From an uncultured Desulfobulbaceae bacterium (GTDB taxonomy: Bacteria > Desulfobacterota > Desulfobulbia > Desulfobulbales > Desulfocapsaceae), in contig CAISPV010000043.1 of the NCBI GenBank assembly GCA_903887485.1, forward strand, positions 1-33,627: 33,627 nucleotides of DNA. The letters are read 5' to 3'. The position numbers and the translations under genes are program-made. The first letter of the stretch is position 1; the number at the start of each line of letters is the position of its first letter. Below, in pieces: positions 1,695-33,627 of this stretch. The notes beneath the pieces were generated by a model. The model worked only from the letters and a program-made list of their open reading frames with translations, had not been told where the DNA came from and searched no databases.

Positions 1695-2456
1695 ATGGAA
1701 TGGCTTGCTTCCCCTGAAACCTGGATGGCCCTTGTCACCCTGACCGCGCTCGAGATTGTCCTCGGGGTCGACAATATCATCTTCCTTGCCATTCTGGTCG
1801 GCCATCTTCCCAAAGGCCAGCAAGCTAGGGGCAGAACCATCGGTCTGGCCATGGCCATGCTCACCCGGATCGGCCTTCTTTTTTCCATAACCCTGATCAT
1901 GCGCCTGACCCATCCCTTTGTCACCCTGTTTGGGCACGGAATCTCCGGCCGCGACCTGATCCTGATCGGCGGCGGCCTGTTCCTGCTTGCCAAAAGCACC
2001 ATGGAAATCCATGAAAGTCTGGAGGGAGATACCCTTGAGGGACAGTCCAGCCATAAAAAATTCGCCTCTTTCTGGCCCACCATCGTCCAGATCATGATCC
2101 TGGATATCGTCTTTTCGCTGGACTCGGTGATTACCGCAGTCGGACTTTCCAACCAACTGGCAATCATGGTCGCCGCCATTGTTATGGCAGTGGGGGTGAT
2201 GCTCTTTCTGGCCGGCGCCATCTCCGACTTTGTGGAGAAACATCCCACCGTCAAGGTCCTCGCCTTAAGTTTTCTGCTGCTAGTGGGCATGGCCCTGATC
2301 GGTGAAGGCTTCACCTTCCATATTCCCAAGGGCTATATCTACTTCGCCATGGCCTTTTCAGTCTTTGTGGAGATGCTTAACATCCGACTGCGGGCCAAGA
2401 GAGTGGAACCGCTGCATCTGCGCAAATCCGTCCCTATAGATCTGGACGTCGAATAG
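1695..2456 (+). CDS. TerC family integral membrane protein
   Basis: The 253-residue protein is mostly hydrophobic, with about seven membrane segments. It carries the TerC signature acidic stretches LEIVLGVDNIIF (residues 20-31) and LDIVFSLDSVITAVG in the second half, where membrane-embedded Asp and Glu are thought to bind metal ions. TerC proteins are linked to tellurite resistance and, for the Alx/MntP-like and YceF/YkoY types, to Mn(II) export that supports metalation of exported proteins. The substrate here is unknown. AGGA lies 7 bases before the ATG. The C-terminus is short and lacks CBS or CorC domains. It is tightly spaced with the DUF188 gene before it and the flavoprotein gene 2 bases after it. 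Confidence 0.92.
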   Translation: MEWLASPETWMALVTLTALEIVLGVDNIIFLAILVGHLPKGQQARGRTIGLAMAMLTRIGLLFSITLIMRLTHPFVTLFGHGISGRDLILIGGGLFLLAKSTMEIHESLEGDTLEGQSSHKKFASFWPTIVQIMILDIVFSLDSVITAVGLSNQLAIMVAAIVMAVGVMLFLAGAISDFVEKHPTVKVLALSFLLLVGMALIGEGFTFHIPKGYIYFAMAFSVFVEMLNIRLRAKRVEPLHLRKSVPIDLDVE

Positions 2457-2458
2457 CC

Positions 2459-3490
2459 ATGCATTTTCATACGGTCATTATCGGCGCGGGGCCCGGCGGT
2501 CTGGCCTGCGCCAGGATGCTTGCTGATCACGGCATTCAGACCCTGATCATTGAACGGCATGAGACCATCGGGGCCAAGGTGTGTGCCGGTGGGATCACCT
2601 GGGGCGGGCTGATCAGCCGGGTACCGCAAGATCTTGCCGAAAAGTCCTTTCCGGTACAGCACATCATCACCCGCCTCCAGAAGGTGCGCATTGAAGAGCC
2701 GACACCGATCATTGCCACGGTCAATCGGGTGAAACTCGGCAATGATATGGCGCAACAGGCCATTGCAGCCGGGGCCGAGATCATGACCGGCTGGCAGGTC
2801 AAGGGGATCAAAGGGCAGACCCTGATTATTGAGGAGAAAAACAGCAGAAAAAAGCAGGAAATCAGCTTTGATTATCTAGTGGGGGCAGACGGCTCAAACT
2901 CGCTGGTACGCAGACATCTGGGACTTACGAGCAACAAGATGGGCATCGGCATCAACTATCAGATCAACGGCGATCTGCAGAAGATGGAGTGGCACCTGAA
3001 CAGCCGGTTTTTCAGGAACGGCTATGGCTGGATCTTCCCCCATGGCAATACCGTCTCCATTGGTGCCTATGTCCCGAGATCCGTAATGCCTGCCCAGCAG
3101 TTAAAAAAAGGTCTGATTGCCTGGGCCAAGACCTGCGGATTTTCTCTTGAAAAAGAACAGGCGAGGGCCGAATATATCAACTATGATTACCAGGGCTGGA
3201 AATTTGGCAGGATCTTTCTCATTGGCGATGCCGCAGGTCTGGCCTCGGGGTTGACCGGCGAGGGTATCTACCCGGCCATCATCTCCGGGGAAGAGGCAGC
3301 CCGCACCATCCTTGATCCTGAGCACAGCACTGCGGTAATGGCAGGCCTGCTCCGCAAGCACCGCCTGCACAGCCGCATGGCAGACTGGACTGGAGCGAGC
3401 CCCACCTTCAACGTCATTGCCGGAGAAGTCGTGACTTTGGGGCTGCGATATGGTTTAATCAAATTCAGCAAACTGGAGATGGCGGTCTGA
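2459..3490 (+). CDS. Geranylgeranyl reductase family FAD-dependent oxidoreductase
   Basis: The 343-residue product opens with the FAD dinucleotide-binding motif IIGAGPGGLACARMLADHG followed by ERHETIGAKVCAGG. It has YLVGADGSNSLVRR in the middle and IFLIGDAAGLASGLTGEGIY near residues 255-275, the second FAD-contact motif of the group 2 aromatic-hydroxylase-like fold. The GYGWIFP motif is typical of geranylgeranyl reductases, which saturate isoprenoid double bonds of chlorophyll, archaeal lipid or quinone side chains. In a non-photosynthetic bacterium the substrate is unknown; menaquinone or another polyprenyl compound is possible. The start is 2 bases after the terC stop, so the two are probably co-translated. 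A small cytochrome gene follows after 49 bases. Confidence 0.85.
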   Translation: MHFHTVIIGAGPGGLACARMLADHGIQTLIIERHETIGAKVCAGGITWGGLISRVPQDLAEKSFPVQHIITRLQKVRIEEPTPIIATVNRVKLGNDMAQQAIAAGAEIMTGWQVKGIKGQTLIIEEKNSRKKQEISFDYLVGADGSNSLVRRHLGLTSNKMGIGINYQINGDLQKMEWHLNSRFFRNGYGWIFPHGNTVSIGAYVPRSVMPAQQLKKGLIAWAKTCGFSLEKEQARAEYINYDYQGWKFGRIFLIGDAAGLASGLTGEGIYPAIISGEEAARTILDPEHSTAVMAGLLRKHRLHSRMADWTGASPTFNVIAGEVVTLGLRYGLIKFSKLEMAV

Positions 3491-3539
3491 CAACAATGCC
3501 ATTTCACTCATTAACTTTTCAGCACTCAGAACGAAAGCC

Positions 3540-3809
3540 ATGGCAACCCCTCATAAAAAGAACAAGACACTCTTTCTGAATATCGCCTTTGTCCTCGTCG
3601 GCGCCGCTATTCTCTTTTTCCTCTTCAACGCCCCGAAAGAGACCACAAAAAAACTGCCAAAAGATGCGAACCACAGCCGCTTCCAGGACATGAAGAAAAA
3701 AGAGGCGGAAAAATTCTGCATGGAATGTCATGCCCCGGGAGGAGAGTATCCCCTTCCCCAAGGCCACCCCCCCAAATATCGCTGTCTTTTCTGCCATAAG
3801 AGAAACTGA
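3540..3809 (+). CDS. Small membrane-anchored diheme cytochrome c
   Basis: The 89-residue protein has one N-terminal membrane segment (about residues 11-30, uncleaved anchor or signal), then a basic linker and two heme c sites, CMECH (60-64) and CLFCH (82-86), in a compact domain of about 35 residues. The pattern PLPQGHPPKY.C between the hemes supplies a histidine that could be a distal ligand. It would face the periplasm. It follows the flavoprotein gene by 49 bases and may be in the same transcript, but a functional link is inference. It matches no cytochrome family I can name. The ATG at 3540 has only a weak ribosome site. Confidence 0.82.
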   Translation: MATPHKKNKTLFLNIAFVLVGAAILFFLFNAPKETTKKLPKDANHSRFQDMKKKEAEKFCMECHAPGGEYPLPQGHPPKYRCLFCHKRN

Positions 3810-3837
3810 CCGCACCATCAAACCGCTCTGGCGCCAA

Positions 3838-4338
3838 TCAATTCAAGAGATGCTTCTGCCCACGTTTCTGCCTGATTTTTATAAAGAAACGCAACGAGAG
3901 AAAATAACTGGCAAGAGCACAGGGAAGCGCCAGGACTGTACCCCCGACAACCAGGACAATTGCCGCCTCATAGCCAAGCCCGACAAGGGCCTCGATGGAT
4001 TTCTGAAACCCCGGATGTTGCAGCAGGATATCAAGCACTCCCTTGATGCGGCTCCAGGTAAGCTCATACGGCGTCAAGGCATTGCCGATAATGGTGGCAA
4101 GATAATACTGGGGCACATACGTTATTGGATTACAGACGAGAAGACTTCCCAGCAAGGCCGCAATGGTCGAGCTTCTGGTCACTAACGTAACCGGGATAAT
4201 AACAATAGTATGCAAAGGCATGGTGGGAGTGATGCCAATAAAAATGCCGATGGCCGTACCCAGGGCCAGGGATTGGGGATCCCCCTTTAACCGCATGAAT
4301 TTCAAATAATAATATCTGGCACTTCGTTTCGGATTCAT
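3838..4338 (-). CDS. DUF2062 membrane protein
   Basis: From the ATG at 4338 the product has 166 residues: a basic N-terminus (MNPKRSARYYYLKFMRLKGD), then GTAIGIFIGITPTMPLHTIV and further hydrophobic segments, including CNPITYVPQYYLA, and a C-terminal membrane helix before a basic tail. The GxxxGxFxGxxP block and the NP motif are typical of DUF2062, a small inner-membrane family of unknown function that is sometimes fused to glycosyltransferases. The frame stays open up to 4437, but that start would overlap tsaD by 83 bases; 4338 leaves a 16-base gap and fits the family N-terminus. It is transcribed after tsaD and convergent with the diheme cytochrome gene. Confidence 0.82.
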   Translation of the reverse strand: MNPKRSARYYYLKFMRLKGDPQSLALGTAIGIFIGITPTMPLHTIVIIPVTLVTRSSTIAALLGSLLVCNPITYVPQYYLATIIGNALTPYELTWSRIKGVLDILLQHPGFQKSIEALVGLGYEAAIVLVVGGTVLALPCALASYFLSLRFFIKIRQKRGQKHLLN

Positions 4339-4354
4339 CTGCTCGTCTATTTTT

Positions 4355-5356
4355 TTAAAGTTGAGAACGGGAGTACACATCCTGTTCATAAGAGCCTGGC
4401 GCTGATCCTTGAGAGTAATAAAAACCGGCCATGGCAATCATCGCCCCATTATCGGTACAGAAAGAGGGACGGGGGACAAAGAAGGCCTTCCCCTCCTGCT
4501 GACAGCGGCCGGACATCGATTCGCGAAGCCGGGGATTGGCTGAAACCCCGCCACCCAAAACAACCGTCTGCACATTGTGCCTCCTTGCGGCCAGCATGGT
4601 TTTCTCCACCAGGACATCGACAATAGCCTCCTGAAATGAGGCGCAGATATCGGCAAGTTGCAGGGGATTGCCTAACTGTTTGGCCTGATTGCAGTGATTC
4701 AGCACTGCGGTCTTCAGGCCGGAAAAACTGAAATCCAGCGATTCCTCTTCCAGCCAGGCCCTGGGGAATTTAATGGCGGCCCTGTTGCCGGCCTTAGCCT
4801 CCTCAGAAACCCTGGGACCACCCGGATAGGGCAGGCCCAGGAGTTTCGCCACCTTGTCAAAGGCCTCGCCGGCGGCATCATCACGGGTTCTGCCCAGGAG
4901 CGAAAAGGAGGTATGGCTCTGCGCGAGATAGATTGAGCTGGTCCCGCCGGAGACGATGAGGGCAACATAAGGAAATGATGGTTTGTCCTCTTCCAGAAAT
5001 ACTGCCAGCAGGTGCCCGGCCATATGATCAACGCCGACAAAGGGAATTTTAGTAACATAGGAAAGGGCCTTGACATAGGAAAAGCCAACAAGCAGCGAAC
5101 CGATCAGGCCTGGCCCCTGGGTCACCGCGATCAGATCAATATCCTTGAGTGTCACGCTGGCCCGGTCCAGGGCCTCCGTGACGATAGGCACGATAGACTC
5201 AAGGTGTTGACGGGACGCGAGCTCCGGCACCACCCCGCCAAAACGGGTGTGGATCTGATCCTGACTGCTGACCACGCTTGCGAGCAGCGTGTCGCTGTCT
5301 TTCAACACCGCCGCCGCTGTATCGTCACATGAGGTTTCTATTCCCAGGGTGAGCAT
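4355..5356 (-). CDS. tsaD: tRNA N6-adenosine threonylcarbamoyltransferase TsaD
   Basis: The 333-residue product starts MLTLGIETSCDDTAAAV and carries VTQGPGLIGSLLVG, HMAGHLLAVFLE (the two metal-binding histidines of the HxxxH motif), LIVSGGTSSIYL, DDAAGEAFDKVAKLLGLPYPGG and, near the end, FCTDNGAMIAMAG. These are all hallmark blocks of the TsaD/Kae1/Qri7 ASKHA-fold family. With TsaB, TsaE and TsaC it makes t6A at position 37 of ANN-reading tRNAs in the cytoplasm. The glutamate usual in HMEGH is alanine here, which leaves both metal ligands in place. The length is typical. The gene is divergent from moaA and is followed by the DUF2062 gene after 16 bases. No strong ribosome site is visible before the ATG. 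Confidence 0.97.
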   Translation of the reverse strand: MLTLGIETSCDDTAAAVLKDSDTLLASVVSSQDQIHTRFGGVVPELASRQHLESIVPIVTEALDRASVTLKDIDLIAVTQGPGLIGSLLVGFSYVKALSYVTKIPFVGVDHMAGHLLAVFLEEDKPSFPYVALIVSGGTSSIYLAQSHTSFSLLGRTRDDAAGEAFDKVAKLLGLPYPGGPRVSEEAKAGNRAAIKFPRAWLEEESLDFSFSGLKTAVLNHCNQAKQLGNPLQLADICASFQEAIVDVLVEKTMLAARRHNVQTVVLGGGVSANPRLRESMSGRCQQEGKAFFVPRPSFCTDNGAMIAMAGFYYSQGSAPGSYEQDVYSRSQL

Positions 5357-5525
5357 AGTATGAATTCTTTGAAAAACCTTTGGAGAAAAAAGAGGAAGCC
5401 GCCATTCAAAAATAACTGTAATATCTCTTGGCAGAAGCAGAAGATTCAGAGTAATAAAAGCTTTTTATATATGATCCCTTTTGGAGAAAAAGTCAACGTC
5501 CGCCCAGATCAGGAATCCTTACATC

Positions 5526-21745: not shown

Positions 21746-23338
21746 ATGATAACACTCCTTGATTACGGCGCCGGCAATGTCCGCAGCGTCAGAAACGCCA
21801 TTGCCCGCTTGGGCTATACGGTTCGTGACGTCCAGGGCCCGCAGGATATCCTTACTGCCGAAAAACTGATCTTCCCAGGGGTTGGCAGCTTCGGCTCGGT
21901 CATGCAACGCCTGCAAAAAGACGGCCTGGTGGAACCTCTCATTGAGCGGATCCGCCTCAACAAACCCTTTCTTGGCATCTGTGTCGCCCTGCAGGCCTTG
22001 TTTGCAGGCAGCGAGGAATCACCGGGCGTGGCCGGGCTCGCCATCCTGCCCGGCCAGGTCAAACGGTTCACCACCCGCGATCTCTCTGTGCCCCAGATTG
22101 GCTGGAACGGGATTGTTCTTCACAAGGAATCTCCTATCCTCAAGGACTATCATGACCAGAAGCTCTATTTTGTCCATTCCTACCGGGCATCAATCGCTGA
22201 TGTCGGCCCGGACTGGCTGCTTGCCACCACCGATTACGGCGAATCCTTTGTCAGTGGCGTCGAAAAAGGGAACGTCACCGCCTTTCAGTTCCATCCCGAG
22301 AAAAGCGGCGAGGCCGGGCTGGGCATCCTCAAGAATTATCTTGACTCCCAAGGCCGGGAATCGATCACAGTACGCCCTGCCCTGCCTGTTACCACTGAAA
22401 AAACACATATTGCCAAACGAATCATTGCCTGCCTGGATGTGCGCACCAACGATTCAGGCGATCTGGTGGTGACCAAAGGCGACCAATACGATGTGCGCAA
22501 TGAAGGTGAGGTGCGCAACCTGGGCAAGCCGATTGAACTCGCCCGCCGCTACTATGAAGAGGGTGCCGACGAGATCACCTTCCTCAACATCACCGGCTTC
22601 CGGGATTTTCCCATGCAGGATCAACCCATGCTTGAGGTCCTGCGGCGCACCTCGGAGAACGTCTTTGTGCCGCTGACCATCGGCGGCGGTATCCGTGAAT
22701 TCACTGATTCAACCGGCAAACATTATTCCCCGCTCGATGTGGCCGCTGAATATTTCCGCTCCGGGGCCGACAAGATCTCCATCGGCAGTGACGCCGTGTA
22801 CGCTGTGGAGGAATACCTGCAGGCAGGCAAGCGGAGCGGCAAAAGCGCTATTGAACAGATCTCTTTTGTTTATGGCGCCCAAGCCGTGGTCATCTCCGTT
22901 GATCCCCGGCGGGTCTATGTCCATGCCCCGGAAGATACCACCCACACCACCATCCAGACCGCAATCCCCGGGCCACAGGGAGAGAGGTACTGCTGGTACC
23001 AGTGCACCGTCAAAGGCGGCAGAGAGGGACGCGATATTGATGCAGTACAATTGACCAGCACGTGCGAACTGCTGGGGGCAGGCGAGATCCTCCTCAACTG
23101 CATTGACAGGGATGGAACCAACAGCGGTTTTGATCATGAACTGATCAGACAGGTGCGGGGGGCGGTCTCCATTCCGGTGATCGCCTCATCAGGTGCGGGG
23201 TCGGCCCAGCATTTTGTCGATGTCTTCCTGGAGACCGATGTGGAGGCGGCGCTCGCTGCCGGCATCTTCCATCGTCAGGAGGTCCCGGTCAGTGAGGTCA
23301 AAGAGGCCATGCGCAGGAATAATATCGAGACCCGGTGA
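21746..23338 (+). CDS. hisHF: Fused imidazole glycerol phosphate synthase HisH-HisF (HIS7 type)
   Basis: The 530-residue protein joins the glutaminase and cyclase subunits of imidazole glycerol phosphate synthase, which makes IGP and AICAR from PRFAR in histidine synthesis. The HisH part (about 1-205) has MITLLDYGAGNVRSV, FPGVGSFG, the nucleophile loop FLGICVALQALF (Cys79) and FQFHPEKSG. The HisF part (from about 218) has RIIACLDVRTN, KGDQYDVR, LTIGGGI, VVISVDPRRVY and IPVIASSGAG. The cyclase contains the long insertions of fungal and plant HIS7 (HYSPLDVAAEYFRSGADKIS, and TAIPGPQGERYCWYQCTVKG). Most bacteria have separate, shorter HisH and HisF. Three decayed copies of sequence from this gene's end or from the junction after it occur downstream. 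Confidence 0.95.
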   Translation: MITLLDYGAGNVRSVRNAIARLGYTVRDVQGPQDILTAEKLIFPGVGSFGSVMQRLQKDGLVEPLIERIRLNKPFLGICVALQALFAGSEESPGVAGLAILPGQVKRFTTRDLSVPQIGWNGIVLHKESPILKDYHDQKLYFVHSYRASIADVGPDWLLATTDYGESFVSGVEKGNVTAFQFHPEKSGEAGLGILKNYLDSQGRESITVRPALPVTTEKTHIAKRIIACLDVRTNDSGDLVVTKGDQYDVRNEGEVRNLGKPIELARRYYEEGADEITFLNITGFRDFPMQDQPMLEVLRRTSENVFVPLTIGGGIREFTDSTGKHYSPLDVAAEYFRSGADKISIGSDAVYAVEEYLQAGKRSGKSAIEQISFVYGAQAVVISVDPRRVYVHAPEDTTHTTIQTAIPGPQGERYCWYQCTVKGGREGRDIDAVQLTSTCELLGAGEILLNCIDRDGTNSGFDHELIRQVRGAVSIPVIASSGAGSAQHFVDVFLETDVEAALAAGIFHRQEVPVSEVKEAMRRNNIETR

Positions 23339-23477
23339 ATTTTAAGTTCATTCGTATTTAAGTTGAAAGTTTCGGACTAAGCAGTCCGCAGTGTTGATGG
23401 ATTTTAAGAAGAAAATATCCAACATCCTTCTAATCCGTAGACTGCTGATTGGATCACGCCTGGACTACAAATAAAAT

Positions 23478-23512
23478 AAAGCACTTAGCTCTATTTGAGC
23501 TAGGTGCTTTTT
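23478..23512 (+). terminator. Rho-independent terminator after hisHF
   Basis: AAAGCACTTAGCTC (23478-23491) pairs with GAGCTAGGTGCTTT (23497-23510) with one G-T pair and a 5-base loop; T residues end the stem and continue to 23512. It lies 140 bases after the hisHF stop. Confidence 0.82.
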
Positions 23513-23950
23513 CGTTCCGTCAGATACCGGTCAGGATGAGATCGTGCTACTCCGGCATCATCAATATACTCAAAGAACCTGGCGTCCGCCTCTTCTCTTC
23601 ATTCAATAACGTATAGCCGCTGAAAAACTGCAAAAGAGGAAAACTATAGGAGGGTGGGATATTAATTCCCAAAATTTTCCAGGGCATTGCTTTTTTTTTG
23701 AGTATATGCAACTGTATTATATCAGCTAAGAAAAGACTTCGTGCGTTCTGGTCAAATGGAAGCATTCGACCGAATCAGCCTATCACAAATATTCGTAAGA
23801 TTCTTCAATACACTGTCAGACGGTAAAAATAAATCTCCAGACATCAAAAGAAGGAGGTGCAAACAACGCGAGACTTTACCGAACAAGCCATAAATGTTTA
23901 GATATATTCAGAATCACAAAAAAAATTAATCTAAAGTAAGGGGGGGAAAA
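23513..23950. other. AT-rich stretch before the beta-barrel gene, no gene seen
   Basis: After the hisHF terminator there are 438 bases without a convincing ORF. A 72-codon minus-strand frame (23547-23765) has no recognisable features or ribosome site. The stretch probably carries the promoter of the outer-membrane protein gene, but no clean -35/-10 pair stands out. Confidence 0.4.
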
Positions 23951-24580
23951 ATGAAAAAAATTATTTTAGCTATTGCTTGTTGTGCAACACTACTTTCTAT
24001 CTCTTCCGTGGCATACAGCGCCGAAGGCCTATATGTGAGCGGTAATTTAGGTCTTGCAATTCCCAATAATTCTGATGTGACTTTTTCTGACAGTCCAGGT
24101 GCAACCTTGACTGTCGAATCAAACAGTGGCTTAGCCCTTGCTGGTGCCATAGGATATGGCCTAAGTAACAATGTTAGACTTGAGGCCGAGGTTGCATATC
24201 AGAAAAATGATATGGATAAAATGAAAATATTAGGTGTTGGCTTGGATATAAATGGTGACACATCAAGCCTGGCCTTATTGTTAAATGGCTACTATGATTT
24301 CAAGAATAAAAGCGCATTCACCCCATTCATTGGCGGTGGTATTGGAATAGCAAAAGTTAATATGAGTGACGTAACTCTCTTTGGTCTCCCTATAGGCTCA
24401 AGTGATGACGACACGGTTTTTGCCTATCAGGTTGGCGCCGGTGTTAGTTATGCCGTAAACGAAAAAGTTAGCATCGACGTTAAATATCGTTACTTTGCGA
24501 CTTCAGACCCAGAGTTTGGTACCTCGACCATGGAATATTCAAGCCACAACATTTATGCCGGCGTCAGAGTAGCATTCTGA
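23951..24580 (+). CDS. Small outer-membrane beta-barrel protein
   Basis: The 209-residue product has a clear signal peptide (MKKIILAIACCATLLSISSV, cleavage near AYSA-EG) followed by alternating beta strands: GLYVSGNLGLAIPN, LALAGAIGYGLSNNVRLEAEVAYQ, SLALLLNGYYDF, TPFIGGGIGIAKV, FAYQVGAGVSYAVNEKVSIDVKYRYF. It ends with YAGVRVAF, whose terminal phenylalanine is the assembly signal of outer-membrane barrels. The size fits an eight-stranded barrel of the OmpA/Opa or OmpW-like superfamily. A G-run ribosome site (GGGGGG) precedes the ATG. Its function is unknown. It lies between hisHF and a decayed copy of the hisHF end, in AT-richer DNA. Confidence 0.9.
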   Translation: MKKIILAIACCATLLSISSVAYSAEGLYVSGNLGLAIPNNSDVTFSDSPGATLTVESNSGLALAGAIGYGLSNNVRLEAEVAYQKNDMDKMKILGVGLDINGDTSSLALLLNGYYDFKNKSAFTPFIGGGIGIAKVNMSDVTLFGLPIGSSDDDTVFAYQVGAGVSYAVNEKVSIDVKYRYFATSDPEFGTSTMEYSSHNIYAGVRVAF

Positions 24581-24599
24581 TATTTTTATTATCCGTTAT

Positions 24600-24639
24600 A
24601 AATACCAGGGGCAAATTCCATATATTGCCCCTGGTATTT
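24600..24639 (+). terminator. 15-bp perfect hairpin after the beta-barrel gene
   Basis: AAATACCAGGGGCAA (24600-24614) pairs perfectly with 24625-24639 around a 10-base loop. Stem ends are A/T pairs, giving T residues at the 3' side. It lies 20 bases after the stop codon, as expected for a terminator. Confidence 0.8.
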
Positions 24640-24767
24640 AACACCTCTTCCGCTTTAGTATCTCCAGGCCTTGGTTCAGAGAAGTGACTCCGATCGTTGG
24701 AACAGTATTTCACCTTTTTTAAGTGGAATCTTTGCTTGATTTCAAGCTGCCTGTTCAACCGTCGGCA
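24640..24767. other. Short stretch of unknown origin before the hisHF remnant
   Basis: No gene is supported between the terminator and the hisHF-like sequence. A minus-strand frame here (LNRQLEIKQRFHLKKVKYC) has some protein-like character and could be a gene or transposase fragment, but it matches nothing I can name. Confidence 0.3.
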
Positions 24768-24916
24768 GCATCACGGTGTCGGTCCAGCATTTTGTCGATA
24801 TCTTCCAGAAGACCGATGTGGAGGTGGCGCTCGCGGCCGGCATCTTCCATCGGCAGGAGGTTCCGATCAGTGAGGTAAAAGAGGCCATGCGTAGAAAAAA
24901 CATCGAGCCCCGGTGA
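24768..24916 (+). pseudogene. Decayed second copy of the hisHF 3' end
   Basis: From about 24768 the sequence repeats the end of hisHF (23201-23337). It encodes QHFVDIFQKTDVEVALAAGI and HRQEVPISEVKEAMRRKN, then EPR and TGA, compared with QHFVDVFLETDVEAALAAGI in the real gene. By hand alignment the last 132 bases differ at 14 positions, about half of them silent. There is no upstream coding sequence and no start. TGACCAA follows the stop, as also at 28915, whereas the intact gene is followed by different DNA. Confidence 0.92.
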
Positions 24917-25113
24917 CCAACTCAAAAAGGAATGCGGAGAAAAGCATCAACTCTTCGTCATCGGCAAAGATATTGTCTGTCTGTCGTCATGCAGAGGACG
25001 TTTTTACTGTGTTGGTTTTGAAGTGAGGAGAGAGAGATGTTTCCAAACATAATATAGATATTCAGATTTTCTGAATTGGGGTGATTGATAATAATAATAT
25101 GAACCACGACACT
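24917..25113. other. Post-remnant spacer with old terminator-like sequence
   Basis: 24920-24950 resembles 25862-25900: both have a TCAA, a GAGAAAAG and a CTTTTC/CTCTTC-TTCGTC block in the same order. This is interpreted as the ancestral spacer after hisHF. The remainder to 25113 shows no gene. Confidence 0.45.
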
Positions 25114-25455
25114 TCACATTCCATTCATTTTAGAAATCTCCACAGAAACAGGACATAAGCAGAGAGATAATTCATTCATGCCCTGTTCTGTAATATCAGA
25201 ACGATACAAACAATTTCCTAAACAATAGGGTTTTTCCTTCACCACTATTCCATCACCCCTTTTTTTACCTATAGCCATACATTGAGGAAAAATCGCACAC
25301 GAGGATAAGCAGCCGTGTTTATGGCGGCACTGTTTTGTGCTTTTCATAATCTCTTCAGGAATTTTATACATCATTTCTATCGCTCCGCTGACAAAAGATA
25401 ACGACTTTTCGCATATCATGAATACCGAATTCCAGTCTGGATTATTCGTCTTCAT
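25114..25455 (-). CDS. Cysteine-rich small protein of unknown function
   Basis: The 113-residue frame has no signal peptide or membrane segment. Its cysteines lie in a non-random series: CRHKHGCLSSCAIFPQC (about residues 43-59), PYCLGNCLYR and LCLCPV near the end. This suggests a zinc or iron-sulfur site. I do not recognise the family. No good ribosome site is visible before the ATG at 25455, so the start is uncertain. It is the only gene between two hisHF/GGDEF junction remnants, and no partner is adjacent. Spacing of cysteines and codon-like composition are the main reasons for calling it real. Confidence 0.55.
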   Translation of the reverse strand: MKTNNPDWNSVFMICEKSLSFVSGAIEMMYKIPEEIMKSTKQCRHKHGCLSSCAIFPQCMAIGKKRGDGIVVKEKPYCLGNCLYRSDITEQGMNELSLCLCPVSVEISKMNGM

Positions 25456-25855
25456 CTATATTAGTTTGAGGTAGCAATTTCCCATCAAGCAAACTGACCG
25501 ATTTTTAAAATTCAAGCTGTCTCATAAAGACTCATAGCTTACCATGCCTAACTCCCGACAGGTTTAGTCTGTGTCATATGTCATTTGCTTGCATCAAATA
25601 ACCATAAGAAAAAACATGCAAGGATTGATCCGAAAAGACGACAGGTGCTATTGTAATTCTCTATTGTGTTTAATAACAGTATGTTGCAGGCTTATTATCA
25701 TAAGAACAATATGCGAAGACGGATGTGACCACTAAATAAAATGGTTGATTGAGAGGTTGGTTGGGTGATTTAACGCAGGGGACTTGAAAGGAGGGAGGGG
25801 GCGCACAGTTAAACTAACCTTAACACTTCGTTGAGTTCTGATTTGGCAAGGGTAT
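25456..25855. other. AT-rich stretch without a recognisable gene
   Basis: About 400 bases upstream of the cysteine-rich gene carry no supported ORF, RNA gene or clear repeat. It may hold the promoter of that gene on the minus strand. Confidence 0.35.
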
Positions 25856-25879
25856 GCACCAAGTCAAGAACGAAGCTGA

Positions 25880-25897
25880 GAAAAGTACTAACTTTTC
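25880..25897. terminator. Hairpin in a copy of the hisHF-GGDEF spacer
   Basis: GAAAAGT (25880-25886) pairs with ACTTTTC (25891-25897) around ACTA. The A-run and T-run on either side fit a bidirectional terminator between convergent genes, which is what this spacer would have been originally. Confidence 0.5.
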
Positions 25898-25904
25898 GTC
25901 CTTA

Positions 25905-25953
25905 TACTCAACTTAGCTCATCGTGATCATTGCTGGAAATCATAGTTAATGGC
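25905..25953 (-). pseudogene. Decayed copy of the GGDEF gene 3' end
   Basis: 25906-25942 matches 28931-28967, the last codons of the GGDEF gene, at all but 4 of 37 positions, including CTCATCGTGATCATTGCTGG. On the minus strand it still encodes ISSNDHDELS followed by TGA, against ISSNDHDEFS and TAA in the intact gene. Weaker similarity continues to about 25953. No further part of the gene is present. Confidence 0.85.
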
Positions 25954-26007
25954 GTCATATTTTCTTGTAGTTTTATTTAAAAAAAATATACACTGAAAAT
26001 AATGCAA

Positions 26008-26139
26008 CTCTTGCAAAATGATCAATATGTCATTCCCGAGTGCTTTTTTCGGAAATCCATTATTGCAAATTCAACCTGTTAAAGATTCCCGCCTACGTGG
26101 GAATGACAGCTTTGGATTTAATTCGTCATTTTGCAAGAG
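26008..26139. mobile_element. MITE-like element with 14-bp terminal inverted repeats
   Basis: CTCTTGCAAAATGA (26008-26021) is the exact reverse complement of 26126-26139. Inside lies a second inverted pair, GTCATTCCCG (26029-26038) and GGGAATGAC (26099-26107). The 132-bp unit is non-coding. GTCATTCCCG/GGGAATGAC-type ends are common in dispersed palindromic repeats of environmental Proteobacteria and Desulfobacterota. It lies about 55 bases after the GGDEF remnant and 150 bases before the first HAMP gene. Confidence 0.7.
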
Positions 26140-26290
26140 GCCCTAATATATACTTTTATGATTTTTTACTTTTTCCAGGGTTCGCTCAGCTAAACGAAAA
26201 TACTGTAAAATAGCATTCCACGAAGTCTGCGCTTACCTCTTTATTATTTGATATTTTTCCAACAACAGACAGGCCTGACAGGTGACAATA

Positions 26291-26839
26291 ATGAGAAATA
26301 TTTACACCCACAAATCCTGGTTCAAGAGCCGAGTACTCTTTGGCCTGAGTATATTCTGTATCACAGGCTTTGTAACGACCCTTGCCGTCCTGTACTTCAC
26401 AATGCAACAGAATATCGGCCCCACCTACGCTATAGGTATCAAAATGCTCACAGCCCTGAGACAGGATATTCTCTACAAGGCTTTGACAATTTTCGGAATC
26501 ACCTTTCTCTTTATAATCATCGGCATTCTTATTCTGGCCATGCTCTATTCACACCGGATAACAGGCCCCCTCTATCGGCTGACCCAATTCGTAAAAAAAG
26601 TAACAGAGGGCCACCTGAATGAAAGGGCCGGCATAAGAGATACAGATGTCATACACCCTGTGGCCGATGAACTGAATGAACTGGTAAGTGTGTATCACAA
26701 CAAATTCCAAGAAATCAAAGAAGAAGTTAAAACCTTGGAAACATTGACTGCTAAGATGGACACAGGCGAGGAAACCCTTTCCAAAATAAAAAAGAAGGCA
26801 AAGGAAATTCGTCAACTGACCGAACAATTCCAATTATAA
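26291..26839 (+). CDS. HAMP-domain membrane protein without output domain (1)
   Basis: The 182-residue protein has a membrane helix at about 15-37, a short periplasmic loop of about 25 residues, a second helix at 64-87, then a HAMP domain (HRITGPLYRLTQFVKKVTEG, with the conserved proline) and a C-terminal coiled coil rich in Glu and Lys (EIKEEVKTLETLTAKM, KIKKKAKEIRQL). There is no kinase, cyclase or methyl-accepting domain, so the signal must pass to a partner through the coiled coil. The ATG at 26291 is chosen over GTG at 26282 because AGGTGA lies 5 bases before it. A seven-heme cytochrome gene follows after 87 bases; the same order recurs at 27871-28856. Confidence 0.85.
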   Translation: MRNIYTHKSWFKSRVLFGLSIFCITGFVTTLAVLYFTMQQNIGPTYAIGIKMLTALRQDILYKALTIFGITFLFIIIGILILAMLYSHRITGPLYRLTQFVKKVTEGHLNERAGIRDTDVIHPVADELNELVSVYHNKFQEIKEEVKTLETLTAKMDTGEETLSKIKKKAKEIRQLTEQFQL

Positions 26840-26926
26840 TGGCGCCGCAGATCAGCACAGATTTTAAAAAATTTTCATTGGCCAATTGATACGTCCCCGC
26901 AGGAAGTACCCATTAGGATGTAAATT

Positions 26927-27778
26927 ATGTTTTTTGAAAAAAAATCAATCCTAACAATATTGTCAATGAAACATTCTACCATTATATGGGGTTTATTATT
27001 TAGTCTTTTCGCTGCGTTGATAGCATATTGTCTCGGGTCGAATCCCCATGATTTTTCTCAATCTCAATGCAAGCTCTGCCACACCGGGGAGCCAAATTCA
27101 CCGGAATTTTTGACTGTCAAAAGCTCCTCTTTGACATGCAAAACTTGTCATAAGGAGATATTTGAAAGTGGATTTATGCATCCTGTTGATATAATACCTG
27201 AGAAAGTTACTGTCCCAAGGGATATGCCCCTCTCCAACAACGGATTATTAACCTGCAATACCTGCCATAATGTTCATGCTGATTACAAAAAGTCCTCCAA
27301 CTTTCTGCGCCGGCAAGAGCTTCCGCGTATTTTTTGTGTGATTTGTCACAGTGATGGCAGTATGGGCCACAGCCATGCGTCGACTCTGGCTGTGGCCCAT
27401 TTCTCTGCAAGTCACACTGCTTCCGAAAGTGGGCTGACCGGCCCCCTCGACGCCATATCAAAAAACTGTCTCAGCTGTCACGATGGCACCCAGGGATCTT
27501 CAGTCCCAATAAATACGGGCAACTGGGATCACAGCAGCAGTTTTTCCGGACCAACACTTGGCAAAAAACATCCTATCGGCATTCATTATGAGCAGGCTCG
27601 ATTGAGATCAGGTCGAAAAACAGATTTACGCCCCATCAGTGAAGTCGATAAACGGATTAACTTTTTTGATGGTCAAATCGGATGTGGCTCCTGCCACAAT
27701 CCTTATAGCCAGGGCCAAGATCACCTGGTTATGAGCGACAGGCGCAGTGCGCTCTGTTTTTCCTGTCATATGATGTAA
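26927..27778 (+). CDS. Seven-heme cytochrome c
   Basis: The 283-residue protein has an N-terminal membrane segment (about residues 18-36) acting as signal or anchor, and seven heme c sites: CKLCH (48), CKTCH (71), CNTCH (110), CVICH (137), CLSCH (181), CGSCH (253) and CFSCH (277). It would be periplasmic and attached to the inner membrane. Residues 45-141 align with most of the four-heme protein at 28437-28856 (shared HP, TVP, L-N-G, CxTCH, LRR and C-x2-CH spacing), so one derives from the other by duplication or by loss of the C-terminal three-heme half. AGGA lies ahead of the ATG. It pairs with the HAMP gene before it. Confidence 0.9.
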   Translation: MFFEKKSILTILSMKHSTIIWGLLFSLFAALIAYCLGSNPHDFSQSQCKLCHTGEPNSPEFLTVKSSSLTCKTCHKEIFESGFMHPVDIIPEKVTVPRDMPLSNNGLLTCNTCHNVHADYKKSSNFLRRQELPRIFCVICHSDGSMGHSHASTLAVAHFSASHTASESGLTGPLDAISKNCLSCHDGTQGSSVPINTGNWDHSSSFSGPTLGKKHPIGIHYEQARLRSGRKTDLRPISEVDKRINFFDGQIGCGSCHNPYSQGQDHLVMSDRRSALCFSCHMM

Positions 27779-27870
27779 TGGAATCGTAAAAAACTTCATG
27801 GATCCAGTACCAAGAATACATAAATTCGAATATCGAAATTCGTGTTTGCCCTCTTTATCAGGAGATAATC

Positions 27871-28440
27871 ATGACACAACGACATTATAAACGCAGAAAC
27901 TACTTTATCGACAAAAAGACCCAGTCTAAATTCATGGCCGCTTTTGCACTCTCCTCCCTGATTTCGGCCATTGCAGCAGTTTTCATTTTTGTCTTTCTTT
28001 CCCAAACAAAACTCGAGAAGACCATGTATACCATGAGGTTACCCGAAACAACCCTGGCCGACCTGCTTTTCGAGGAAATGGTATTAACCACAGGCATTGC
28101 TGTCATTGTGGTTATCTTATTATTCAGCTACACACTTATTAAAATATTTTCAAGAATTGAACACCCGTTGATCAAATTAAAAGGAGCTATTCTGAAAATC
28201 AAAGAAGGAAACCTGAGAGACACTGTTGCCTTAAGGAAAAATGAGGAGTTTCAGGACTTTGCCCATACACTTGATAAAATGAGAACAGCATTGAGAACAA
28301 AAATTCAGGTCATACAAATCAACAGCGAAAATCTCAGCAGGGTTGGTGAGGGAGATAAACAGGACAGCACTACCCTTACAGAAGAATGTCATAGTCGTCT
28401 GAAAACAATAAAACAAGAGTTGGAGTTGCTGAAGCTATGA
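27871..28440 (+). CDS. HAMP-domain membrane protein without output domain (2)
   Basis: The 189-residue product has a basic N-terminus (RRNYFIDKKTQSKFM), membrane helices at about 23-44 and 70-91 with a short periplasmic loop, a HAMP domain (SRIEHPLIKLKGAILKIKEG, then NLRDTVALRKNEEFQDF) and a C-terminal coiled coil ending KQELELLKL. It has the same layout as the protein at 26291 and similar HAMP sequence, so the two are probable paralogues. AGGAGA precedes the ATG. Its TGA overlaps the ATG of the four-heme cytochrome gene (ATGA at 28437-28440), which indicates translational coupling and a shared role. Confidence 0.88.
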   Translation: MTQRHYKRRNYFIDKKTQSKFMAAFALSSLISAIAAVFIFVFLSQTKLEKTMYTMRLPETTLADLLFEEMVLTTGIAVIVVILLFSYTLIKIFSRIEHPLIKLKGAILKIKEGNLRDTVALRKNEEFQDFAHTLDKMRTALRTKIQVIQINSENLSRVGEGDKQDSTTLTEECHSRLKTIKQELELLKL

Positions 28441-28856
28441 AGCAATTTCTTTACCTTTTCACTCTTCTGCTTCTCTTGCCTCACAATGGCCTGGCAGCTT
28501 CAAAAACACCCCATGACGACGCTGAAATCCGCTGTCTTGACTGTCACATCAAACTGCCCCTTGAAAGAGTTGCCCTGTCCTTTTACAGTGATATCCCCTC
28601 AATTTGCCAGACATGCCATAAAAACTATCCCTGCAAGGACGATTCTGAAACAAAAAACGGCTACATTCATCCTATTAACATGACGCCCAGCATGACTGTT
28701 CCCAACGACCTGGTGTTGGACAATAAAGGACAAATAAGCTGCATTACCTGCCACTTTTACCACGACAAGGGAAAAGCCGCGTTACTTCCTCATAGCCACT
28801 ATTTGCGCCGTTCTTCAGTGAAACGATTATGTATGAGTTGTCATAGAAATATATAG
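28437..28856 (+). CDS. Four-heme cytochrome c
   Basis: The 139-residue protein has a typical signal peptide (MKQFLYLFTLLLLLPHNGLA, cleavage near LAA-S) and four heme c sites: CLDCH (33), CQTCH (57), CITCH (102) and CMSCH (132). It would be a soluble periplasmic cytochrome, unlike its seven-heme relative with an N-terminal anchor. GYIHPINMTPSMTVPND and HYLRRSSVKRLC match GFMHPVDIIPEKVTVPRD and NFLRRQELPRIFC of the larger protein. It overlaps the HAMP gene by 4 bases. It could be a redox sensor partner or an electron carrier; the sequence does not decide. Confidence 0.9.
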   Translation: MKQFLYLFTLLLLLPHNGLAASKTPHDDAEIRCLDCHIKLPLERVALSFYSDIPSICQTCHKNYPCKDDSETKNGYIHPINMTPSMTVPNDLVLDNKGQISCITCHFYHDKGKAALLPHSHYLRRSSVKRLCMSCHRNI

Positions 28857-28869
28857 CTATCCGTTTTCA

Positions 28870-28917
28870 GGTCAGTGAGGTTAAAGAGGAAAAAGGAATA
28901 ATATCGAGATTTGATGA
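28870..28917 (+). pseudogene. Third remnant of the hisHF 3' end
   Basis: GTCAGTGAGGTTAAAGAGG (28871-28889) and GGAATAATATCGAGA (28895-28909) match 23288-23331, the last codons of hisHF, with a small deletion between them, and end at a TGA followed by CCAA as in the copy at 24914. It sits directly beside the intact 3' end of the GGDEF gene, so this is probably where the ancestral hisHF-GGDEF junction is best kept. Confidence 0.8.
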
Positions 28918-28932
28918 CCAAACCAAGAACAC

Positions 28933-29796
28933 TTAACTGAACTCATCGTGATCATTGCTGGAAATCACCCTGTTACGGCCTTGGCTCTTTGCCTGATACA
29001 GGGCCTTATCGGCACGTTCGACTATGGCGGCGGCGGTATCCCCGTCACCAGAAAACTGGTACCCGGAAACGCCAATGCTGACGGTGATATAGATGGCAGG
29101 CCGGTTTTCTTTCAAATCCGACCCTACCAGCATCGTCTCTTCAACTTTCCGACGTAACCGCTGGGCCAGTTCAACCGCATGCACCACCGTGGTATTTGGC
29201 AGGATCACCAGGATCTCCTCCCCTCCATAGCGGATCACAACATCAAGTTCACGCACAGAGTCGACAATCACCGTCCCCAGTTTTTTTAAGACCATATCAC
29301 CAACCTGATGACCATAGGTATCGTTGATCTTCTTGAAAAAATCAATATCAAGGAGAAAGATGGAGAATGGCAGTTCATATCTTCTGGCCCGCTGGAGCTC
29401 TTCCGTAAGCCTACGATCAAGATATCGACGATTGTAAATCCCCATTAATGGATCAGTGATAATCTCCCGCTCAAGGAGAAAAATCCGCCGCAGATCAATG
29501 GCTGTTTCCAAAGAAAGCGAACAGACCATAAAGACAAAAATGGCTCCGCCAAAAAATATCCAGGGGACAACAAGATCGGCAATGGAATGGATGGTGACTG
29601 GGCCATGTAGAAAGGAATAACGAATATAGCCTGCAATAAATATAAAGATCAAAATGGACAGGATTTTCCACCGGGTCTGAACTTTTCCCACAGGCAACTG
29701 CTGAATAATCGCCTTGACCGGGCCAAGGGACATAAACAGAAGGATTATGCCCACAATTATCAAGCCGATTTCAATCCCAAAAAAATTATTCTGCAT
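28933..29796 (-). CDS. Membrane-bound diguanylate cyclase (GGDEF)
   Basis: From the ATG at 29796 the product has 287 residues: three membrane helices (IEIGLIIVGIILLFMSLG, ILSILIFIFIAGYI, WIFFGGAIFVFMVCSL), a short linker and a GGDEF domain (DPLMGIYNRRYLDRRL, FFKKINDTYGHQVGDMVL, active site RYGGEEI). GGEEI is an active variant of the motif, and RELD five residues ahead is the intact inhibitory site for cyclic di-GMP. It should make cyclic di-GMP from two GTP under control of the membrane part, which resembles no sensor I know. Starts at 29829 (ATG) and 29844 (GTG) are also possible. It is convergent with hisHF and the inserted segment. Confidence 0.9.
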   Translation of the reverse strand: MQNNFFGIEIGLIIVGIILLFMSLGPVKAIIQQLPVGKVQTRWKILSILIFIFIAGYIRYSFLHGPVTIHSIADLVVPWIFFGGAIFVFMVCSLSLETAIDLRRIFLLEREIITDPLMGIYNRRYLDRRLTEELQRARRYELPFSIFLLDIDFFKKINDTYGHQVGDMVLKKLGTVIVDSVRELDVVIRYGGEEILVILPNTTVVHAVELAQRLRRKVEETMLVGSDLKENRPAIYITVSIGVSGYQFSGDGDTAAAIVERADKALYQAKSQGRNRVISSNDHDEFS

Positions 29797-29943
29797 CTGC
29801 CTTTTTATCCCCTTGGAAACTTGACACATCCACCCTTCTTCCACGCTGGATCATATCCATGATAATAAAAATTAAGGGCTCAGGAAGCAAAAAGCATAAA
29901 AAATGTGCTCACCTTCCAATCACTCTGTCCTATTTTTTTACGG

Positions 29944-32851: not shown

Positions 32852-33627
32852 ATGATCACCATCAACGAAAATTATCTCAAGCTCCAGGCCTCGTATCTCT
32901 TTTCCAATATCGCCAAACGAGTGACCGCCTTTCAGCAGGCCCATCCTGAAAAAGATATCATACGGCTGGGGATCGGCGATGTGACCCGCGCCCTGCCCCC
33001 GGCCTGTATCGCCGCCTTTCATAAGGCGGTGGATGAAATGGGAACTGATAGCAGCTTCCGCGGCTATGGCCCGGAACAGGGTTATGGTTTCCTACGTGAG
33101 GCTATTGCCAAACATGACTTCCAGGCCCGGGGCGCAGAAATATCTGCTGACGAGATCTTTATCAGTGACGGGGCCAAATGCGATACCGGCAATATCCAGG
33201 AGCTCTTCACCCAGGATATCAAGGTGGCCATCCCCGACCCGGTCTATCCGGTCTATCTCGACACCAATGTCATGGCTGGCCGTACCGGGAACTTTGTCGA
33301 TGGCAGGTATCAGGGACTGGTCTATCTCGACTCCACCAAGGCCAATAATTTTGTACCGGCCCTGCCCTCTGAAGATGTGGATCTGATCTATCTCTGTTTT
33401 CCAAATAATCCCACAGGATCAACCATTACCAAAGATGAGCTAAGCTTATGGGTGAAGTACGCCAAAGAGAAAAAAGCGCTGATCCTTTTTGACGCCGCCT
33501 ATGAGGCCTTCATCCGCGACGAGTCCCTGCCCCATTCCATCTATGAGATCGAAGGGGCCAGGGAAGTGGCCATTGAGTTCCGCTCCTTCTCCAAGAGCGC
33601 GGGCTTCACCGGCACTCGCTGCGCCTA
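32852..33627 (+). CDS. dapL: LL-diaminopimelate aminotransferase (3' end outside window)
   Basis: The frame is open from ATG at 32852 to the right edge (258 codons). It begins [20 protein letters not shown] and contains [53 protein letters not shown] and [12 protein letters not shown] with the lysine that binds pyridoxal phosphate. These are the DapL blocks. DapL converts tetrahydrodipicolinate directly to LL-diaminopimelate with glutamate, bypassing the succinylated or acetylated steps, for lysine and peptidoglycan. This route is common in Desulfobacterota, Chlamydia and plants. The ribosome site is weak (AAAGAGA). About 150 residues are missing. Confidence 0.96.

Follow-up and report, generated by a model that had tools for sequence, protein, structure and literature searches.

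Mobile elements that integrate into the end of a protein-coding gene are the closest described counterparts of the locus analyzed here, the interval between hisHF (encoding a HisH–HisF fusion) and a GGDEF gene in an uncultured Desulfobulbaceae bacterium. In the passages of PMC6379469 devoted to it, e14 of Escherichia coli integrates in the 3′ part of icd and brings in a substitute gene end; the former icd end, 163 bp long, persists as a pseudogene piece at the far border. For integrative and mobilizable elements (IMEs) and integrative and conjugative elements (ICEs), the sections of PMC5704250 on accretion describe tandem elements at the end of one target gene, generally decayed and with their integration genes lost; they also describe Salmonella genomic island 1 (SGI1), which uses the 3′ end of thdF and a secondary site and forms tandem arrays. 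By our analysis of positions 1-33,627 of contig CAISPV010000043.1 (hereafter the window), the 3′ third of hisHF is quite probably the attachment site of tyrosine-integrase elements that carry a spare hisHF end, and the window would be a decayed pile of such elements.

As far as those descriptions extend, the resemblance to e14 at icd lies in a proposed insertion inside the 3′ part of a metabolic gene, a replacement end and an old end at the far border. Here, however, the gene is hisHF, the carried end reaches up to ∼350 nt (117 codons) and several tails stand in tandem. Moreover, e14 is a prophage, whereas no phage structural family was found among nine proteins, not all open reading frames (ORFs), scanned against Pfam from a related element in G114 (JAHIVT010000121.1, a metagenome-assembled genome titled ‘Proteobacteria bacterium’). 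Tandem borders with different cargo, namely three tails in G114 and tails d and e in the window, recall the accretion of IMEs and ICEs and the cis-mobilizable elements (CIMEs) as portrayed in those sections. CIMEs keep the left and right attachment sites, attL and attR, whereas the window's borders are long coding tails at which no core was found, and for this last reason the window's modules were not filed as CIMEs. The conjugation, mobilization or relaxase families typical of IMEs and ICEs were not found among the same nine G114 proteins (no search aimed at relaxases was made). With SGI1, as portrayed there, the locus shares the 3′ end of a protein gene, a second site and tandem arrays, but the arrays of SGI1 are copies of one element and the modules found here are different and decayed.

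No paper on hisHF or hisF as an integration site was found in the open-licence literature (published integration-site tables may list hisF), and neither the gene, nor the length of the carried end, nor the traffic of pieces between two loci had a match there. In the relevant portion of PMC7545054, hisF is mentioned only for an E. coli island near hisI/hisF. The principle is known from e14 at icd and from accretion at attachment sites, and the present site would be a new case of it. A histidine-biosynthesis gene would thereby be the target of an integrase, and the gene end that the element carries would be unusually long (the att sites of SGI1 are short), and the coding-fragment tails would constitute a readable fossil record, in which insertions can be counted and ordered.

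Repeated ends of hisHF and of the GGDEF gene

The region is flanked by an intact hisHF gene of 530 aa and an intact GGDEF gene, between which further copies of their ends are found, as follows (positions in the window).

21746-23338, + strand: intact hisHF (HisH–HisF fusion), the target gene; TIGR01855 and TIGR00735; best solved-structure match 1jvn, HisHF
22991-23013, + strand: putative attachment core within the gene (hisHF nt 1246-1268), near which (nt 1241-1246) 10 of 21 extra copies start
24774-24916, + strand: extra hisHF tail d (hisHF nt 1451-1593), 89% identical
24917-24959, no strand: spacer copy behind tail d, resembling 25858-25900
25858-25942, no strand: middle junction, spacer 25858-25900 and GGDEF 3′ end 25906-25942
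28866-28917, + strand: extra hisHF tail e, very short, adjoining the native spacer
28933-29844, − strand: intact GGDEF gene, on the other side of the empty site

Significance of the repeats was assessed with 300 dinucleotide-preserving shuffles per comparison, and all four comparisons beat 300/300 of them. Tail d aligns with hisHF over 143 nt without gaps at 89% identity, and tail e (28870-28909, 40 nt) aligns with hisHF nt 1542-1585 at 82%. The second GGDEF 3′ end at 25906-25942 is identical to 28931-28967 at 34 of 37 positions, and the spacers 24916-24959 and 25858-25900 align with a score of 41, compared with a mean of 14.5 and a maximum of 25 for shuffled sequences. Thus, the repeated ends described in the initial annotation of this region are real, with the correction that tail d starts at 24774 rather than 24768. 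The same annotation had pointed to similar spacers near 24917-24950 and 25862-25900, to TGACCAA following the stop in two hisHF tails and to an AT-rich cargo region, all of which we recovered: the motif is located at the stop in tails d and e and is not in intact hisHF, and G+C is 0.51-0.59 across 21.5-23.5 kb versus 0.37-0.48 across 23.5-29 kb. Of its ‘four junction copies’, the first is the intact hisHF end, the second a hisHF end with spacer and the third a spacer with GGDEF end, and in the fourth a very short hisHF end is accompanied by the native spacer and the intact GGDEF gene. A hisHF tail to the left of the middle junction (25700-25862) was not found, 165 of 300 shuffles scoring as high. 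The 16 differences between tail d and hisHF fall on third codon positions in 8 cases and on first and second positions in 4 cases each, a modest bias which is no proof of past selection.

In the mechanism we propose, a circular element with a hisHF end that starts at ∼nt 1244, includes the stop and spans up to 117 codons would recombine at the chromosomal core, whereupon hisHF would keep its 5′ part and gain the in-frame end of the element, and the old end would be shifted to the far border. The next element could then insert at such an end, giving a pile of elements with hisHF tails between them, and subsequent decay would remove the integrases and most of each tail. Applied to the window, the modules between hisHF and the GGDEF gene would be foreign, the end of hisHF now in use would be element-borne, and tails d and e would be leftover borders that arose by integration; tail e, which adjoins the native spacer, probably represents the oldest native end, and tail d would be an inner border. 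For the extra spacer and GGDEF end, flanking DNA would have been copied too, either by capture in faulty excision or by duplication.

Empty and filled sites in relatives, and a second locus

The genus of the window comprises 17 genomes, its own included (prefixes G, C and L denote our numbering of genomes, contigs and loci). Gaps were counted in the 11 genomes with hisHF and the GGDEF gene on one contig; the other six are G003, G005, G006 and G009, where hisHF and the aminopeptidase gene lie on separate contigs, and G007 and G010, where no intact hisHF was found. Seven of the 11 gaps are small (18 nt in both G015 and G004, 80 in G014, 85 in G016, 101 in G013, 195 in G012 and 428 in G001) and four are large (1428 nt in G011, 2304 in G008, 4418 in G002 and 5594 in the window's genome). 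All 4 gaps of more than 1.4 kb contain an extra hisHF tail, which was not found in any of the 7 small gaps (18-428 nt). Moreover, cargo differs among the four filled gaps, with two Lcl_C-domain genes in G008, an integrase, a radical-SAM gene and small ORFs in G002, one 197-aa ORF in G011 (outside the family scan) and the modules described below in the window. The duplicate hisHF end is at the far border and the intact gene at the near border in G002, G114, G008, G011 and the window. By our reading of the searches, extra hisHF pieces are present in 10 of the 17 genomes of the genus, and they are also present in G114.

In G002 the order is hisHF, integrase, cargo, a 344-nt hisHF tail and GGDEF, and the tyrosine integrase ORF (Pfam Phage_integrase and Arm-DNA-bind_3) starts 0.14 kb behind the hisHF stop. 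Scanning named genomes with this integrase gave 11 loci, including a 74% relative in G114; among the relatives L130-L138, ORF lists were obtained for two, the fetched loci were searched for hisHF, mgm (see below) and cargo genes, and hisHF was searched in five genomes. Intact hisHF of G114 (contig position 13187-14773) is followed by 18.8 kb with a Prim-Pol/PriCT_2 gene, an integrase, a SIR2-like gene, a gene for a phosphoesterase-domain protein and, by our reading of the ORFs, intron, insertion sequence (IS) and PEP-CTERM genes. Directly behind the integrase, three hisHF tails lie in tandem at 33581, 35552 (decayed) and 36654, separated by what we read as PEP-CTERM-like and toxin–antitoxin-like pair genes. 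G114 is the anatomy of the window with the machinery still present: an integrase is located between the borders in G002 and G114, and none was found in the window. The layout of G006 C37 is as expected between two tandem elements, judged by eye, with right-end-like DNA before the tail and, behind it, a stretch common to G002 and G011, which in G011 is accompanied by the same secreted-protein ORF.

A phage origin of the G114 element was considered and rejected, as scans of viral contigs with its hisF tail and its integrase found no relative; the top-ranked phage record is 29% identical, and the top-ranked plasmid record, from Pseudomonas, 70%. The SIR2-like and phosphoesterase-domain genes of G114 (L149:9244-10290 and 1932-5357) match PADLOC models that represent known or candidate defence proteins. 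In G005 C301 (L048), a gene resembling type IIG restriction-methyltransferases, with an AbiEi-like match at the C terminus, adjoins an ORF running into a hisF fragment that starts at nt 1151. Because of the SIR2-like gene in G114 and the restriction-like gene by the hisF piece in G005, the hisHF site merits a search for defence genes in these bacteria. The cargo of G002 (L038:1866-3651) holds an ORF of 101 aa that belongs to no recognized family and a radical-SAM/SPASM gene; in NCBIfam the latter matches best to the subtilosin maturase AlbA, far below its cut-off. The two are possibly a peptide-modification pair.

Pieces of hisF were also found at a second locus, mgm, which encodes a 311-aa protein with an Lcl_C domain and is present as one full copy in 16 of the 17 genomes. 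Fragments of hisF lie behind mgm in G004, G008, G009 and G010, and others follow extra mgm tails in G004 C303, G001 C208 and G002 C32. In 4 of the 6 extra mgm tails compared, the start is exactly at mgm nt 851, and three of these (G004 C303, G004 C241 and G008 C14) are ∼0.25 kb from a gene or remnant of a G002-related integrase, the one beside the tail in G004 C303 being 58% identical. The 3′ end of mgm is a second hotspot, and related integrases apparently act at the ends of both hisHF and mgm, with pieces of one target riding to the other. Since hisF fragments sit behind an unrelated gene, the tail travels, and a purely local duplication of hisHF would not place hisF pieces and integrases at mgm. 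The extra mgm tails (G004 C303, C241 and C199, G008 C14 and C95, G009 C7 and G002 C32) measure ∼26-28 codons. A terminator-like sequence (AAGGCAGGGTC..GGCTCTGCCTT; query 46-79 of L049:1880-2056) is scattered over the genomes of the family and is also found directly behind hisHF in G114.

For the breakpoints, 22 candidate extra hisHF copies were compared with the hisHF of the window, of which G003 C7 gave no match (n = 21); four tails in which the contig ends (G083 C54, G018 C668, G080 C289 and G112 C86) stood outside this comparison. Ten copies start at nt 1241-1246, ten start later (1323-1542), tails d and e of the window among them, and one starts earlier (G005, 1151). The block shared by the copies with the common start begins, in most of them, with TGCTGGTAYCAGTGCAC, and we read it, from these alignments, as the putative attachment core at nt 1246-1268. 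Upstream of G002 C22, G006 C37 and the first and third G114 tails, related element-end-like sequence was recognized by eye, for the third G114 tail over the last part only. Six copies (G001 C208, G004 C199 and C303, G008 C95, the second of G009, and G010 C31) have the mgm terminator region upstream. The later starts fit erosion from the 5′ side, and in the first copy of G009 a core piece, seen by eye, is kept next to a tail starting at 1429.

Competing explanations for the window

Several observations weigh against integration at hisHF as the origin of the window. Simple integration at this gene does not account for the duplicated spacer and GGDEF end, and the proximal tail of the window does not look imported, being 95% identical across its final 143 nt to that of the close relative G004. 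Remnants of an integrase or primase were not found in the window by tblastn with 12 proteins (two integrases, the primase and nine other G114 ORFs), which gave nothing better than E 0.06. Beside the window tails, neither the core nor the right end of an element was matched beyond chance in nine comparisons, the best being a right-end match at 25700-25860 whose score 5% of 200 shuffles attained. The native-looking spacer of G008 is behind the proximal tail and not the distal one, which would fit elements carrying some flanking DNA. Among the breakpoints, the six copies with the mgm terminator may go back to one event, and the ten common starts are not ten independent events; one of them, the second copy of G009, is weak (E 0.02). 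Four copies start at 1426-1451 (window d at 1451, G008 at 1450, the first of G009 at 1429 and G002 C39 at 1426), for which decay or a second breakpoint is possible, and the G005 C301 copy reaches upstream of the core, to nt 1151.

If the hisHF–GGDEF junction had instead been duplicated locally in tandem and then received IS, cargo and miniature inverted-repeat transposable element (MITE) insertions and decayed, the window would contain no site-specific element. Such a history accounts for the spacer and the GGDEF end, whose duplication is not given by hisHF integration alone, and agrees with the IS and MITE remnants and with the integrase not found in the window. Yet similar tails occur in other genomes, where about half have one breakpoint, some adjoin integrases and some lie at an unrelated locus. 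Across the 11 genomes, moreover, gap size is associated with the presence of tail copies, and we rate tandem duplication as unlikely. The initial annotation had left a choice between tandem duplication with decay and an insertion hotspot in which incoming DNA carries the hisHF end. The hotspot is supported by the 18-nt empty sites of G015 and G004 and by the variable cargo of the four filled gaps. Duplication falls short as the best reading of the hisHF tails, given the hisF pieces at an unrelated locus and the tails by integrases, but the spacer and GGDEF end may have arisen by local duplication or by capture of flanking DNA.

Homologous recombination with DNA taken up from relatives that has cargo beside a hisHF end, in which this end provides the homology at one border and the opposite border is joined illegitimately, would explain why the junction copies include the spacer and the GGDEF end and why 11 of the 21 copies start away from nt 1241-1246; hisHF also recombines elsewhere (change point at nt 573 in G000/G004). 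Homology-driven joining, however, does not favour 10 of 21 starts within 6 nt, and integrases are found beside tails in G002 and G114, which leaves this explanation improbable. An assembly artefact is very hard to credit, for although the genome is in 124 contigs and relatives' contigs end inside the tail (G005, G083 and G018), the window copies differ by 11% and extra hisHF pieces recur in the genus and in G114.

Possible exchange of hisHF tails, and cargo of the window

If integrase elements insert at hisHF as proposed, they may also swap its C-terminal part (codons ∼415 on) between lineages, with the swap outlasting the element and hisHF becoming a patchwork; this extension is tentative, and we are inclined to doubt it. 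Where the end of an element replaces the resident end, tail and body should differ in history. For the hisHF body (nt 1-1243), a grouping of G011 and G002 is rejected (p 0.015) and G011 clusters with G016 (98/95), whereas the G011 and G002 tails, which are the proximal ends at filled sites, group (60/82, and 96/95 with two distal tails added); the distal tail of G002 falls elsewhere in the tail tree. G013, with a nearly empty site (101 nt), has a tail 89-90% identical to those of G000, G004 and G015 and a body 80-82% identical. In a change-point test on 14 pairs, five with G013, three of these five change at nt 1228-1321 (p 0.005-0.015) and those with G014 and G001 are not significant. G011/G016 changes at 1272 (p 0.01) and G009/G003 at 1196 (p 0.025). 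The strongest change point is at nt 573 in G000/G004 and other pairs change elsewhere, so that recombination in hisHF is not confined to the tail.

Pairs and clades for these tests were picked after the identity matrix was seen. The tail tree joins G013, G000, G004 and G015 weakly (55/14, and 66/89 with distal tails), and the body tree rejects this clade (p 0.002), but it also rejects G000, G004 and G015 without G013 (p 0.016), and once G008 is included no grouping is rejected (p 0.19). Hence, the G013 tree test fails as support for a swap, and we lowered our estimate for exchange slightly because the tree with G008 rejects nothing. Overall, the evidence for tail exchange is suggestive only. 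Conservation of the exchanged part extends to 1jvn in the alignment, and this part probably holds a catalytic aspartate of HisF; if tails are swapped, mobile elements would reshape a core enzyme.

The modules and insertion remnants between the two genes of the window are as follows.

23340-23442, − strand: ISL3-type transposase end remnant directly behind hisHF; 83% match to G000 C36
23951-24580, + strand: cargo 1, gene for an outer-membrane beta-barrel protein, with homologues (66-67%) in G008, G009 and G011
24679-24741, no strand: 63-nt repeat, 92% identical to G000 C106
25114-25455, − strand: cargo 2, 113-aa ORF rich in cysteine, with related ORFs in G000 C78 (74%) and G016 (62%)
26008-26144, no strand: MITE-like dispersed repeat; 8 further matches in its own genome, 80-92%
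26282-28856, + strand: cargo 3, encoding a HAMP-like protein, a multihaem cytochrome, a HAMP-like protein and a multihaem cytochrome

The cargo 2 ORF had no Pfam or NCBIfam match at E 0.001. The gene order of cargo 3 recurs in G013 C47 at 74-86% identity in another context, and no hisHF or mgm match was found at the protein level in the 13 kb around it. The G000 C36 copy of the remnant behind hisHF encodes a DDE_Tnp_ISL3 fragment, and the beta-barrel homologue of G009 is located in the mgm locus of that genome, behind a weak hisF core fragment. One match to the MITE-like repeat (85%) lies upstream of hisHF in G001. At the other end of the window, WD40-like repeats, read from translation only, run off the left end in positions 1-810.

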